Assembly: GCA_013177895.1 (NCBI GenBank)
Contig: JABLXV010000009.1
Coordinates: 1 to 64,000, forward strand
Direction of reading: 5' to 3'
DNA: 64,000 nt
From: Brevinematales bacterium
GTDB lineage: Bacteria > Spirochaetota > Brevinematia > Brevinematales > GWF1-51-8
Every line of letters starts with the position of its first letter. Within the stretch, counting starts at the first letter, position 1. Below the pieces are notes generated by a model. The model had not been told where the DNA came from. It saw nothing but the letters and a program-made list of their open reading frames with translations, and ran no database searches. A program made the translations under genes and the position numbers. Shown here piece by piece: positions 4,307 to 8,800 of this stretch.

Positions 4307-4840
4307 TTACAGTTGATAACCCAGTTCCAGCGCCTGGTAGTTCAGGTTGACGACTTTTTCGCCCTTTTTCAGGAATTTCTCATTGATGACGCGCTTGAGC
4401 TCGTCGAGGGTGATGAACGATTTCTCGCGGATCAGTCTGCCGATCATAATCACGTTCGCCATCTTCTGGTTTCCCAGAGTTTCGAGCGCCATCGACTCCA
4501 TCGGTACTTTGACCACCTTCCGTCCGGGGAAATCGTAATCCTTTTTCGCGACGGTGGAGTTGATCATAATCAGCCCGTCCTTGCGGACCTGCCCGGCGAA
4601 TTTGAGGAGAGACGGCTCGTTGAACGCGATCAACGTATCCGCGTCGCTGATGATAGGCGAGCCGATCTGCTTATCGGAGATAATCACATGGCAGTTGGCC
4701 GTACCCCCGCGCATTTCGATCCCGTAAGACGGCATAAATGTCGCCTCGAGGCCGATATGTACCGCCGATTCGGCGAGCATCAATCCCGCCGACAGCGCTC
4801 CCTGACCGCCGAAACCTGAAACAATGATTCTTTCTATCAT
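4307..4840 (-). CDS. 2-oxoacid:ferredoxin oxidoreductase, gamma subunit
   Basis: 177 residues, the typical size of the gamma (pyruvate ferredoxin oxidoreductase C-type) subunit. It starts IIVSGFGGQGALSAG, the glycine-rich loop diagnostic for this subunit, followed by PSYGIEMRGGTANC. With the alpha, beta and ferredoxin subunits it oxidises a 2-oxoacid with CoA to acyl-CoA and CO2, passing electrons to ferredoxin in the cytoplasm. Last gene of a four-gene operon (delta-alpha-beta-gamma), three bases after the beta subunit. Substrate is not fixed by this subunit. Confidence 0.92.
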   Translation of the reverse strand: MIERIIVSGFGGQGALSAGLMLAESAVHIGLEATFMPSYGIEMRGGTANCHVIISDKQIGSPIISDADTLIAFNEPSLLKFAGQVRKDGLIMINSTVAKKDYDFPGRKVVKVPMESMALETLGNQKMANVIMIGRLIREKSFITLDELKRVINEKFLKKGEKVVNLNYQALELGYQL

Positions 4841-4843
4841 AGA

Positions 4844-5593
4844 CTATTCCTTATAATCGTCTTTATAGACGCCGATCGGGAAGAAATTCACGAGTTCGTT
4901 CGTGATATATTTATTGGACTCCACGGGAGTCATTTTCCAGTTCGTGTTACAGTTCGAGAGGATTTCGACGAAACTGTAACCCTTACCGTCGAGCTGGAGT
5001 TCGAATGCTTTCCTGATGGCTTTCTTGGTCTCGCGCACCCCGCGCACATCAGCGACCGTCGTCCGCACCGCGTACTTTACGCCCGGGAACGTCGCAATCA
5101 GCTCCGCCATCTTAATGGGGTAGCCCTCAGTGGAGGGGTTGCGCCCGCCGGGGGTAGTGGTGGTGATCTGCCCGACCAGCGAGGTCGGCGCCATCTGTCC
5201 GCCTGTCATCCCGTAATTCGCGTTATTGATAAATATCACCGTGATATTCTCCCCGCGGTTCGCGGCATGAATCGTCTCCGCCATACCGATAGACGCGAGA
5301 TCGCCGTCTCCCTGGTAGGAGATGACGAGCCGGTCGGGAAGGACACGCTTGATACCGGTTGCCACAGCGGCGGCGCGCCCATGGGCGGCCTCGCAGACGT
5401 CGAAGTCGAAATAGTCGTAGGCGTTCACCGCGCATCCGACAGGGGCTACCGCGATCGTGCGTTCCCGCACGTCCAATTCGTCAACCGCCTCGCAGATCAG
5501 ACGGTGCGCCGTCCCATGCCCGCATCCGGGGCAGTAGTTGAGACGGAGATCGACCATACTCGACGGGCGTTCGTATATTATTGTTTGTTCCAT
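4844..5593 (-). CDS. 2-oxoacid:ferredoxin oxidoreductase, beta (thiamine diphosphate) subunit
   Basis: 249 residues. It holds the thiamine diphosphate site: GDGD at about 100, followed by [12 protein letters not shown], the metal and pyrophosphate binding arrangement of this superfamily. YCPGCGHG near residue 20 and PVGCAV near 53 are conserved in KorB/VorA-type beta subunits. The short length and absence of an extra ferredoxin domain fit a separate-subunit enzyme. It lies seven bases after the alpha gene and three before gamma. Known relatives use 2-oxoglutarate or branched-chain 2-oxoacids. Confidence 0.93.
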
Positions 5594-5600
5594 ACTATCC

Positions 5601-6653
5601 TCACTTCAGTAACGATTTCAGCCGGCGGTATACTTCCGCTTCTTCGGGGAATGCCCCGCCCGGCGTACCGTACAACTCCACAGGCGCTTTCCCGTTGACG
5701 GCGAGACGCACGTCCTCGACCATCTGTCCGGCGCTCATTTCCACTACCAGCATCGATTTTACCCGTGAGGCCAAATCTGCGAGACGCTGGTACGGGAACG
5801 GGTAGAGCGTGATGGGGCGGAATACCCCGACCTTCAGTCCCTCGACGCGCATACTTTCGACTACAGTCCGCGCGATACGCGACGGCATCCCGTAGGCGAC
5901 CGCGATCACATCCGCGTCCTCGGTCATATATTCTTCGTAGCGGATCTCGTTCTTCTCTATCTCGCGGTACTTCGCCTGTAATTTATTGTTGTTAATAATC
6001 ACCCCGTCCTCGTCGAGCCAGAGGGAACGGATGACATTCTTCTCGCGGCCTTTGCACCCGGTCAGCGCCCACGGTTTCGCGGGAGGCTTCGGGACATAAT
6101 CGTCGCGGACAGTCACCGACTCCATCATCAGTCCGATAACGCCGTCGGAGAGGATCAGGCTGGGTATACGGTAAGTATCGGCGAGTTCGTAGCCGAGGAT
6201 GGCGAAATCCATCATTTCCTGCGGGGAGTTCGGCGCGAGAACGATGAGATGGTAGTCCCCATGCCCGCCGCCCTTGACCGCCTGGAAGTAATCGGCCTGG
6301 CTTGCGGCGATATTGCCGAGGCCCGGCCCGCCGCGCTGAACGTTAGCCATCAGGCACGGGAGATGGCACGCCGCGAGGTAGGACACCCCTTCCTGCATCA
6401 GGCTGAAACCCGGCGAGGAGGTGGTCGTCATCGCGCGCGCTCCGGCTGACGCCGCGCCCAGTACCATATTGACCGACGCGACTTCGCTTTCGGCCTGCAC
6501 GAAAACGCCGCCCGCTTCCGGGAGACGCGACGCCATATATTCGGGAATCTCATTCTGCGGCGTGATGGGGTAGCCGAAGTAATACCTGCATCCGGCGATA
6601 ACAGCCCCTTCCGCGAGAGCGATGTTTCCCTTCATCAGCATTCGTTTCGACAT
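5601..6653 (-). CDS. vorB: 2-oxoacid:ferredoxin oxidoreductase, alpha subunit (VorB-like)
   Basis: 350 residues from the ATG at 6653, which overlaps the ferredoxin stop (TAATG); a longer in-frame extension would run into the ferredoxin gene. The start [16 protein letters not shown], then [17 protein letters not shown] and [11 protein letters not shown] match alpha subunits usually annotated as 3-methyl-2-oxobutanoate (2-oxoisovalerate) ferredoxin oxidoreductase VorB. Branched-chain 2-oxoacid oxidation during amino-acid fermentation is therefore the first guess, with 2-oxoglutarate as the alternative. The assignment rests on remembered family sequence, not on a search. Confidence 0.85.
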
Positions 6654-6868
6654 TATTCGGTCTCCTTGGTGATCTTTATCACCGCATCGGGACAGATCAA
6701 GGCGCACTGCTTACACCCCGTACACAGGTCGGGATTACGGGTTTCCGCGTATAGCCAGCCCATCGAGTTCACATCATGACCGATAACCAACACCTCTTTA
6801 GGGCATACTTCCACGCAAAGGCCGCAGCCTTTACATTTTTCGGTATCGACCTCAACAATAAATTTCAC
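6653..6868 (-). CDS. 2-oxoacid:ferredoxin oxidoreductase, delta (2x[4Fe-4S] ferredoxin) subunit
   Basis: About 71 residues from a GTG at 6868, chosen because GGAGG lies four bases upstream and the protein then begins like its relatives (KFIVEVDTEKC). An ATG further up would add about 10-20 residues that do not look like ferredoxin. Two cluster motifs are complete: CKGCGLCVEVCP and CTGCKQCALICP. It passes electrons from the thiamine centre to soluble ferredoxin. First gene of the operon, coupled to the alpha gene by a one-base overlap. Confidence 0.88.
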   Translation of the reverse strand: MKFIVEVDTEKCKGCGLCVEVCPKEVLVIGHDVNSMGWLYAETRNPDLCTGCKQCALICPDAVIKITKETE

Positions 6869-7029
6869 AAATCCTCCGGTATCATTCCAAGACGGCATGT
6901 TTTTTCTTTTGATAAAAAATATCAAAAAAACAATTATAAATCAAATACATGCCACGAAAAGGGGGGAAAAAGAAAAAAATAACAAATTAAATTAACGTAT
7001 TATGACGGGAAATAAAAAAAATGTCAAAA

Positions 7030-7323
7030 TCATTTTGATTGATTTTGCAGGTATAAGGCGATCCTTTTTATCAGTTCATCCCCTTCCGGCAGGCCTGCAA
7101 GTTCCCCATCCGAAATAATCCCCCAACCGGGTAAAAGTTCTATCCGCCGCAACGGTATGACCGCATCGCCGTCATCCGGCCCGGAGAAGTACGCCCATCG
7201 CCTGCCGAATATCCGGCAGAACTGTACCCGAATGCCGTACTCCCGTTCGATGAACGCCCCGGCCATATCCAGAGCCTCTTTCAGGCCGCGTCCGGGAGTA
7301 AATATCTCAGATATAGAGGTCAC
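7030..7323 (-). CDS. small protein of unknown function overlapping hydG
   Basis: 97 residues, GTG start lying inside the last codons of hydG (17-base overlap), so probably translated by coupling. I do not recognise a family. It is soluble and compact, with a helical start (LKEALDMAGAFIEREYGI), a central aromatic stretch (CRIFGRRWAYFSGPDDGD) and a helical end. The coupling suggests a role with HydG or a hydrogenase, but that is context only. The ribosome site is weak, as expected for a coupled gene. Confidence 0.6.
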   Translation of the reverse strand: MTSISEIFTPGRGLKEALDMAGAFIEREYGIRVQFCRIFGRRWAYFSGPDDGDAVIPLRRIELLPGWGIISDGELAGLPEGDELIKRIALYLQNQSK

Positions 7324-8800
7324 GTTCGCCGTTGGTGATCCTGCCGAGGTAGTCGTCGAACGTCGTCAGCAGTTTTTTATTCTTATAGAACGGATCGGCC
7401 TTAATCTGCTCCAATTCCTTCTGTATAATCACTTCCGCGGCCGCACGTGTCTTGTCGCTCGCGAAATCGTCTATCCATTCTCTATAGGTAAGCACCGCGT
7501 TGAGTTTGCAGAACTTCCCCTCGACGCCCGATTTCAGGAGTTTCATAATCTTATCGCCGGTACGTCCGCAGCGGTATCCCGCGGTGCAGAACGATGTAAT
7601 CAGTCCCATCCCCGCGAACTCGCGGACAACATCGTCCAGAGTGCGGATATCCCCGAGCATGAACTGCTGGCGGTCGGACTCCTGCTCCTCGGCCGCGTCG
7701 CTGTACGCGCCGATCCCGATCCGGGTGGACGCATCGGTCTGGGTACATCCGAGCGGGATGATCTTTCTACGCATCCCGGCGGATTCCCTCGCGGTGATAA
7801 TCATCCCGGAATAGGGGATCGACAGCCGGAGCACGATCACGAGCTTACGGAAATCGGCGTCGGACACCATGTACGGGGATTTATTGTTTAAATCCATACC
7901 CTCGGCGGGGTTGAGGCGCGGGAAGGAGATCGTATGCGGGCCGATACCGAAACGGTCCTCGAGGTCGATAGCGTGATAGACCATCCCCATGACCTCGAAA
8001 CGCCAGTCATACAGGCCGAATAACGCGCCGATAGCGACGTCGTCGATACCCGCGTCGAGCGCGCGGTGCAGGGCGTAGAGTCTCCACTGATAGTCCGCCT
8101 TGACGCCGGAGGGGTGAAGCTCGGAGTAACGTTTATGATGATAGGTTTCCTGGAATACCTGGAATGTACCGATGCCCGCCCGCCAGAGTTTCTTGAGGTC
8201 GGCGACCGACATCGGGGCGGCGTTGATATTCGCGCGGCGTATCTGCGCGATCCCGTTCCGAACGGGCGCTTTCACATCGTAGACAGCCTCGATCGTATCG
8301 GCGATATAGTCCGCGCCGGAGCTCGGGTGCTCGCCGTAAACCATAATCAGGCGCTTGTGCCCGATTTTGCAGACCGACTCCGCTTCTTTGCGTACCTCGT
8401 CGAGAGTCAGCGTCCGGCGGCGTTCCTTCGTATTATCCGCGCGGAACCCGCAGTACAGGCAATTATTCACACAGAGATTACTGCAATAGAGGGGGGCGAA
8501 GGTAACGATACGGTTATCGTAGACCTTGCGTTTGATATCTCCCGCGGCGCGGGCCATCTCCTCCCATAACTCCTCGTCCTCGACATTCAGGAGGGCGGCG
8601 GTCTCTTCAGGGTCGAGACGCCGGATTGATAACGCCTTCGCGATAATATCGCGCACGCGGGATTTCTCCGGGCGGGCGCCCGCCGCGATCTGCGCGTGTA
8701 TCAGCGCGTCGTCGATAAAATCCTTCCCGCCTATCAGGTAACGGTCAATCTCGCCGCGCTTAATGGTGTTCGTAATAAAATCCTTTACAGCCGTGGTCAT
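7307..8800 (-). CDS. hydG: [FeFe]-hydrogenase maturation radical SAM protein HydG
   Basis: 497 residues. HydG cleaves tyrosine to supply CO and cyanide for the hydrogenase H-cluster. The radical SAM cysteines are C110, C114 and C117 in NLCVNNCLYCGF (CX3CX2C), in a TIM-barrel core related to ThiH. The C-terminal auxiliary-cluster region is present (SFCTAGYRCGRTGDKIM, then GKFCKLNA), but the canonical CX2CX22C reads C405-X2-Gly408-X22-C431, so the middle cysteine is replaced, with a new cysteine at 411. No hydE, hydF or hydrogenase gene lies in the window. A sigma-70-like promoter is at 8829-8857, and the small gene at 7030 overlaps the 3' end. Confidence 0.88.
   Translation of the reverse strand: MTTAVKDFITNTIKRGEIDRYLIGGKDFIDDALIHAQIAAGARPEKSRVRDIIAKALSIRRLDPEETAALLNVEDEELWEEMARAAGDIKRKVYDNRIVTFAPLYCSNLCVNNCLYCGFRADNTKERRRTLTLDEVRKEAESVCKIGHKRLIMVYGEHPSSGADYIADTIEAVYDVKAPVRNGIAQIRRANINAAPMSVADLKKLWRAGIGTFQVFQETYHHKRYSELHPSGVKADYQWRLYALHRALDAGIDDVAIGALFGLYDWRFEVMGMVYHAIDLEDRFGIGPHTISFPRLNPAEGMDLNNKSPYMVSDADFRKLVIVLRLSIPYSGMIITARESAGMRRKIIPLGCTQTDASTRIGIGAYSDAAEEQESDRQQFMLGDIRTLDDVVREFAGMGLITSFCTAGYRCGRTGDKIMKLLKSGVEGKFCKLNAVLTYREWIDDFASDKTRAAAEVIIQKELEQIKADPFYKNKKLLTTFDDYLGRITNGERDLYI

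Follow-up and report, generated by a model that had tools for sequence, protein, structure and literature searches.

The stretch of DNA analysed here, referred to in full as the window (64,000 nucleotides from a Brevinematales bacterium), encodes a HydG that has lost the middle cysteine of its C-terminal cluster motif, carries a cysteine three residues further on, and has an altered tyrosine pocket; the variant is real and widespread. We consider it probable that this protein belongs to a large clade of HydGs that still serve [FeFe]-hydrogenase maturation, with both active sites remodelled and the auxiliary cluster sitting on Cys405, Cys411, and Cys431. The radical-SAM cluster would still cleave an amino acid, most likely tyrosine, and the Fe(CO)2(CN)(Cys) unit would still be built on the dangler iron beside the C-terminal auxiliary cluster. 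The ligands of that cluster would be Cys405, Cys411, and Cys431 (CX5CX19C) instead of Cys405, Cys408, and Cys431, the middle one lying roughly a helical turn further on, and the pocket substitutions (Thr to Ala, Ser to Asp) would have been in place before the cysteine moved.

The hydG gene lies on the minus strand at 7307..8800 (497 amino acids, ATG start) and was assigned from the TIGR03955 HydG profile (445.5 bits, cut-off 312.15), the alignment with Thermoanaerobacter italicus HydG (4wcx, 445 bits), and the predicted fold; the protein was also aligned with a second solved HydG, 4rtb. ThiH, HydE, and NosL were ruled out as its identity by profile scores, and the ThiH profile TIGR02351 reaches 268 bits, under its cut-off of 380. 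The translation reads ITSFC405-T-A-G408-Y-R-C411-G-R-T-G...FC431KLNA, exactly as an earlier note on this DNA had described it (C405-X2-G408-X22-C431 with the register kept and a cysteine at 411). Against 4wcx the register is intact and the middle cysteine is the sole loss, and, since CX2GX2CX19C stands in place of the canonical CX2CX22C, we class the protein as a HydG variant with CX5CX19C and not as a canonical HydG. In 126 selected full-length HydGs Cys110, Cys114, His276, Cys405, and Cys431 are invariant, and the cysteine lists for these sequences show that Cys117 is likewise kept. All lie on the minus strand: the radical-SAM CX3CX2C motif (Cys110, Cys114, Cys117) at 8450..8473, His276 at 7973..7975, and the first and last auxiliary-cluster cysteines, Cys405 and Cys431, at 7586..7588 and 7508..7510. 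By the 4wcx alignment His276 stands at the place of the dangler-iron histidine, which we take to be His265 of T. italicus HydG. Gly408 (7577..7579, minus strand), at the place of the canonical second cluster cysteine, is Gly in 65, Cys in 52, and Asp in 9 of the 126 full-length rows; the candidate replacement ligand, Cys411, is encoded at 7568..7570 on the same strand. Outside these 126, in the larger set of 228 described below, one full-length variant sequence (L297, from the same family as Syntrophomonas sp. BM5) has Gln aligned at the position of His276.

CTAGYRCGRTG is present in all four genomes of the genus, the window's own included, and the HydGs of the three relatives are 96, 89, and 79% identical to that of the window. 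A nucleotide pattern was run against 84,980 species genomes with codon 408 barred from beginning with T, which makes it blind to Cys, to TCN serine, and to some other residues at this position; it found at least 118 loci lacking Cys408. The motif lies in an open frame in all 118 loci listed, some of them clipped by contig ends, and the residues at 408/411 among these are Gly/Cys in 108, Asp/Cys in 5, Gly/Glu in 2, and Gly/Gln, Gly/Ile, and Gly/Ala in 1 each, so that Cys411 is found in 113 of the listed loci and CTAGYRC in 108. The listed matches include members of the Kiritimatiellae, Omnitrophota, Spirochaetota, Bacteroidia, Planctomycetota, and Archaeoglobaceae and, as named species, Sphaerochaeta halotolerans, Desulfosarcina widdelii, and Peptoclostridium litorale. 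The earlier note had taken a canonical cysteine in relatives as the sign of a sequencing error or an isolated mutation; within the genus all four genomes carry the variant, and with at least 108 further loci having the motif, an error or lone mutation as the source of Gly408 can be dismissed.

Cys408 and Cys411 exclude each other. Two phylum samples were searched with a pattern that left residues 408 and 411 free, one of 392 genomes from the window's phylum with one mismatch allowed and one of 249 genomes from the phylum of P. litorale with zero mismatches. Together they gave 211 matches, 169 with Cys408 and 42 without; Cys411 occurs in 0 of the former and 31 of the latter (Fisher p 3e-28, with kinship ignored). 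The 42 include two CTGYYR matches that are probably not HydG, since one of them (L247) gave no row in a set of 228 HydG sequences in which only Cys, Gly, and Asp are found at 408. This set was assembled from all loci fetched, with duplicates dropped by identity over the last 300 residues and 16 fragments included, and contains 62 sequences with Cys408 only, 154 with Cys411 only, 12 with neither, and 0 with both; Cys411 is thus present in 154 of the 166 HydGs that lack Cys408. An independent-pairs test of the two residues found only 3 pairs, too few for significance.

A tree of HydG was built with columns 408-411 removed, the Syntrophomonas wolfei gene discussed below not being among its rows. 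All rows without Cys408 fall into one clade of 81 (SH-aLRT 99), which includes seven Cys408 rows as well. Its core of 53 rows (SH-aLRT 100) comprises 51 Gly/Cys sequences, that of the window among them, and 2 Gly/Ile sequences. On this tree the loss of Cys408 takes at least 3 changes and the presence of Cys411 7, but a single clade for the loss of Cys408 narrowly escapes rejection (AU p 0.056). Canonical HydG occurs in other families of the window's order (L018, L022, L025, L026, L028), outside the variant clade, and on these grounds the window's genus may have gained its hydG sideways.

The second altered site is the tyrosine pocket. In ThiH the phenol oxygen of tyrosine is held by T299, S318, and S321 with R306 nearby, and this Thr/Ser/Ser/Arg site has been called strictly conserved in HydG (PMC9046217; this and the other papers cited by PMC number are cited from excerpts). 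By alignment with ThiH 7pd1, in which the letters T299, R300, R306, S318, and S321 are all consistent with a chain offset of 10, these residues become Ala337 (7790..7792), Asp356 (7733..7735), and Thr359 (7724..7726), all on the minus strand, and Arg344, so that of the four only the arginine is retained. Residue 337 is Thr in all 44 outer canonical rows and both ThiH rows and in 0 of 74 variants, and residue 356 is Ser in the same 44 canonical rows and Asp in all 74 variants. Among the 228 HydGs, Asp356 is found in all 166 without Cys408, and the 62 with Cys408 divide into 53 with Ser356 and 9 with Asp356. Those sequences combining Asp356 and Cys408 that are present in the tree all lie within the variant clade, from which the change in the tyrosine pocket apparently came before the loss of Cys408. 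A NosL-like tryptophan pocket is unsupported, as NosL has Thr and Ile at 337 and 356, not Ala and Asp. The earlier note had recorded the altered auxiliary motif, and that observation stands; the pocket was not among its observations. Literature searches returned zero reports of an Asp pocket in HydG, and its coupling to the loss of Cys408 is apparently new.

These changes admit a bolder proposal, which we hold tentatively and think rather less likely than not: that this is a major, so far unrecognised clade with different chemistry at both active sites, with Asp holding the phenol and with cluster ligands that are shifted and sometimes reduced to two cysteines, the first change enabling the second. 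The pocket change may have opened the way for the cysteine change, given that no HydG without Cys408 was found outside the Asp clade. If so, Asp would keep the phenol protonated or take its proton, or the substrate would not be tyrosine; in the canonical enzyme a phenolate rests on Thr/Ser/Ser.

The window's genome (G000) contains one HydG and a ThiH-like protein, together with HydE, HydF, and three Fe_hyd_lg_C proteins, two of which have complete P1-P3 H-cluster motifs. The third, a 712-codon frame (L036, G000:C39), matches Fe_hyd_lg_C weakly and shows none of the P1-P3 motifs. Within the window no hyd genes lie next to hydG. Its minus-strand neighbours are a short frame resembling a two-[4Fe-4S] ferredoxin, which follows hydG (about 6653-6940), and the alpha (5601-6707), beta (4844-5593), and gamma (4307-4840) subunits of a 2-oxoacid:ferredoxin oxidoreductase. 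The positions of the VorB-like gene and of the gene upstream of hydG are conserved across the genus, and a small minus-strand frame over the 3' end of hydG (about 7030-7365) has 83, 59, and 45% identity in the three genus relatives.

Context was examined in 80 of the 127 variant-bearing genomes, many of them incomplete. A HydG match at 1e-60 was obtained in 79, the gene in the remaining one (G071) being cut by a contig end; 72 have a single HydG and seven a second (G069, G072, G078, G085, G097, G106, and G116, the last truncated). HydF was found in 75, in 64 above the model cut-off. Eleven genomes have a sub-cut-off HydF of 272-319 bits covering most of the model (G065, G068, G073, G083, G099, G101, G103, G112, G115, G128, and G130), perhaps a divergent type of HydF. 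The [FeFe]-hydrogenase domain is present in 71 of the 80, neither it nor HydF was found in three of these often incomplete genomes (G088, G102, G108), and HydE scored above cut-off in all 12 genomes tested, including all 9 variant ones. In four genomes (G064, G100, G111, G121) hydG adjoins hydF and hydA. The co-occurrence with HydE, HydF, and [FeFe] hydrogenase that the earlier note had proposed looking for is seen in the window's own genome, and that with HydF and hydrogenase in most of the 80.

Published work supplies two experimental anchors. Expression of S. wolfei hyd1ABC in E. coli with its own HydE, HydF, and HydG gave an active purified enzyme (PMC5626996), for which the purification table lists 3,340 U/mg and the activity table 571, with methyl viologen; co-expression of the maturases is stated there to be necessary, and the same S. 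wolfei maturase plasmid also matured HydAB of S. aciditrophicus (PMC7311640). Four primer cores of PMC5626996 match genome G479 at consistent places, and on this basis we take the HydG of G479 to be that of S. wolfei. The gene that starts at the forward maturase primer is a HydG with C401-TA-D404-YR-C407 and an Ala/Asp/Ser pocket, and the Asp at the lost position could itself be a cluster ligand. For Clostridium autoethanogenum HydG a motif C-x(5)-C-x(19)-C has been described as "supposed to coordinate" the cluster, in a paper (PMC9431212) that also cites purification of the Hyt hydrogenase of this organism, King 2006 for the essential nature of the canonical C-terminal cluster as judged by mutation, and Duffus 2012 for variability of the C-terminal motif, and that gives about 1% activation for HydE and HydF without HydG. 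Indirect evidence therefore points to the variant HydG being functional.

An AlphaFold2 model of the window HydG was calculated, metal-free, from 58 window and locus sequences. Its pLDDT averages 94 and falls to about 76-81 round the motif (81 for residues 401-410, 76 for 411-420), and it superposes on 4wcx with 2.0 Å (TM 0.96 by target). The model places residues 407-410 in a short helix with residue 411 just beyond it and Cys431 on a helix spanning 427-446. Positions 408 and 411 are thus predicted to be separated by roughly one turn, so that a shift of the ligand from one to the other is plausible.

Taken together, the exclusion of Cys408 and Cys411, the functional relative with Asp404/Cys407, and the retention of the other residues make Cys411 the most likely replacement for Cys408 as third cluster ligand. 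This was one of three options raised in the earlier note, and it is well supported by the exclusion, the kept cluster and dangler residues, and the activity of the S. wolfei system; the ligation is a prediction. Another of its options, a cluster with different ligands, may apply to the minority lacking both cysteines (12 of 228), in which Gly408 is paired with Ala, Glu, Gln, or Ile at 411, or Asp408 with Leu411. In one of these, L127 from a Syntrophomonas sp. (G084; Gly408/Ala411), there is no stand-in cysteine near the site and no second HydG match in the genome, which also carries HydF and five hydrogenase-domain matches; this suggests that a third cluster cysteine may not be essential. Such sequences encourage the view that HydG is functional with a cluster on Cys405 and Cys431 plus water, Asp, or bound L-cysteine, Cys411 being structural or tuning, as does the finding of other cysteines: Cys420 is common to the Asp/Leu rows, Cys425 to the Gly/Ile rows, and Cys396 is found in most Gly/Ala, Gly/Glu, and Gly/Gln rows, and also in 9 of 52 canonical rows. 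In the sequences without both residues the third cysteine may be dispensable, or Asp, Cys396, Cys420, or Cys425 may serve in some. A merely structural role, however, leaves unexplained why Cys411 is so regular without Cys408 and never seen beside it, and we regard a two-cysteine cluster in the main form as unlikely. Two HydG-like matches in one genome (L235 and L236, G275) each have Gly408/Ile411; the second has Arg in place of the first cluster cysteine and a low HydG score.

The last option would make the variant a HydG-like lyase that serves something other than H-cluster maturation. It could draw on the altered phenol pocket (Ala337, Asp356), on the lack of a hydrogenase-domain match in 9 of the 80 genomes, many incomplete, and on three genomes (G069, G072, G078) in which a Cys408 HydG is accompanied by a Gly408 copy that lacks Cys411. 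The loci L071 (4602-6077), L081 (2877-4352), and L104 (4285-5772) combine Gly408 with Glu411 or Gln411, and each of their genomes also has a Cys408 HydG; ATPases resembling Fe-S carriers (of ParA/NifU and CbiA/ferredoxin type) are encoded close to L071 and L081. The Gly/Glu and Gly/Gln paralogues, which share their genomes with a second HydG, may do another job. For the main form this option is unsupported and we judge it improbable, since most genomes with the variant have no other HydG and combine it with HydE, HydF, and H-cluster hydrogenases, and the published hydrogenase work on S. wolfei and C. autoethanogenum, as far as the excerpts go, also speaks against it.

The solved HydG structures, 4WCX and 4RTB, are both of the canonical form, and the natural ligand shift, together with the forms in which the third ligand is missing or Asp takes its place, offers a test of which ligands the dangler iron needs. 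The Asp pocket likewise puts to the test whether tyrosine has to bind as phenolate. Missing CX2CX22C is poor ground for scoring hydG as absent from a genome; one motif-based survey of acetogens was unable to find hydG in five of eight species (PMC9431212). That paper is the one report of the CX5CX19C spacing that our literature searches returned, in excerpt, and an earlier mention is possible; the spread of the variant and the strict exclusion of Cys408 and Cys411 appear to be new.

Compared with the HydGs of T. italicus (4WCX) and Carboxydothermus hydrogenoformans (4RTB), the window HydG has the same radical-SAM cysteines, dangler histidine, and first and last auxiliary cysteines, and its model shares the fold of 4WCX, but the middle cysteine is missing, a cysteine stands three residues on, and Ala and Asp replace Thr and Ser in the pocket. 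With S. wolfei HydG (SWOL_RS05190) it shares both the cysteine at +3 of the lost one and the Ala/Asp pocket, the lost position being Asp in S. wolfei and Gly here, and it has the same CX5CX19C spacing as C. autoethanogenum HydG (CLAU_RS03260) in its published description (PMC9431212). With ThiH, the 2-iminoacetate synthase, it has the tyrosine-lyase core in common (163 bits to 7pd1), whereas ThiH lacks the C-terminal cluster domain, the match to 7pd1 stopping at residue 393 of the window protein, and retains Thr/Ser/Ser round the phenol (PMC9046217).
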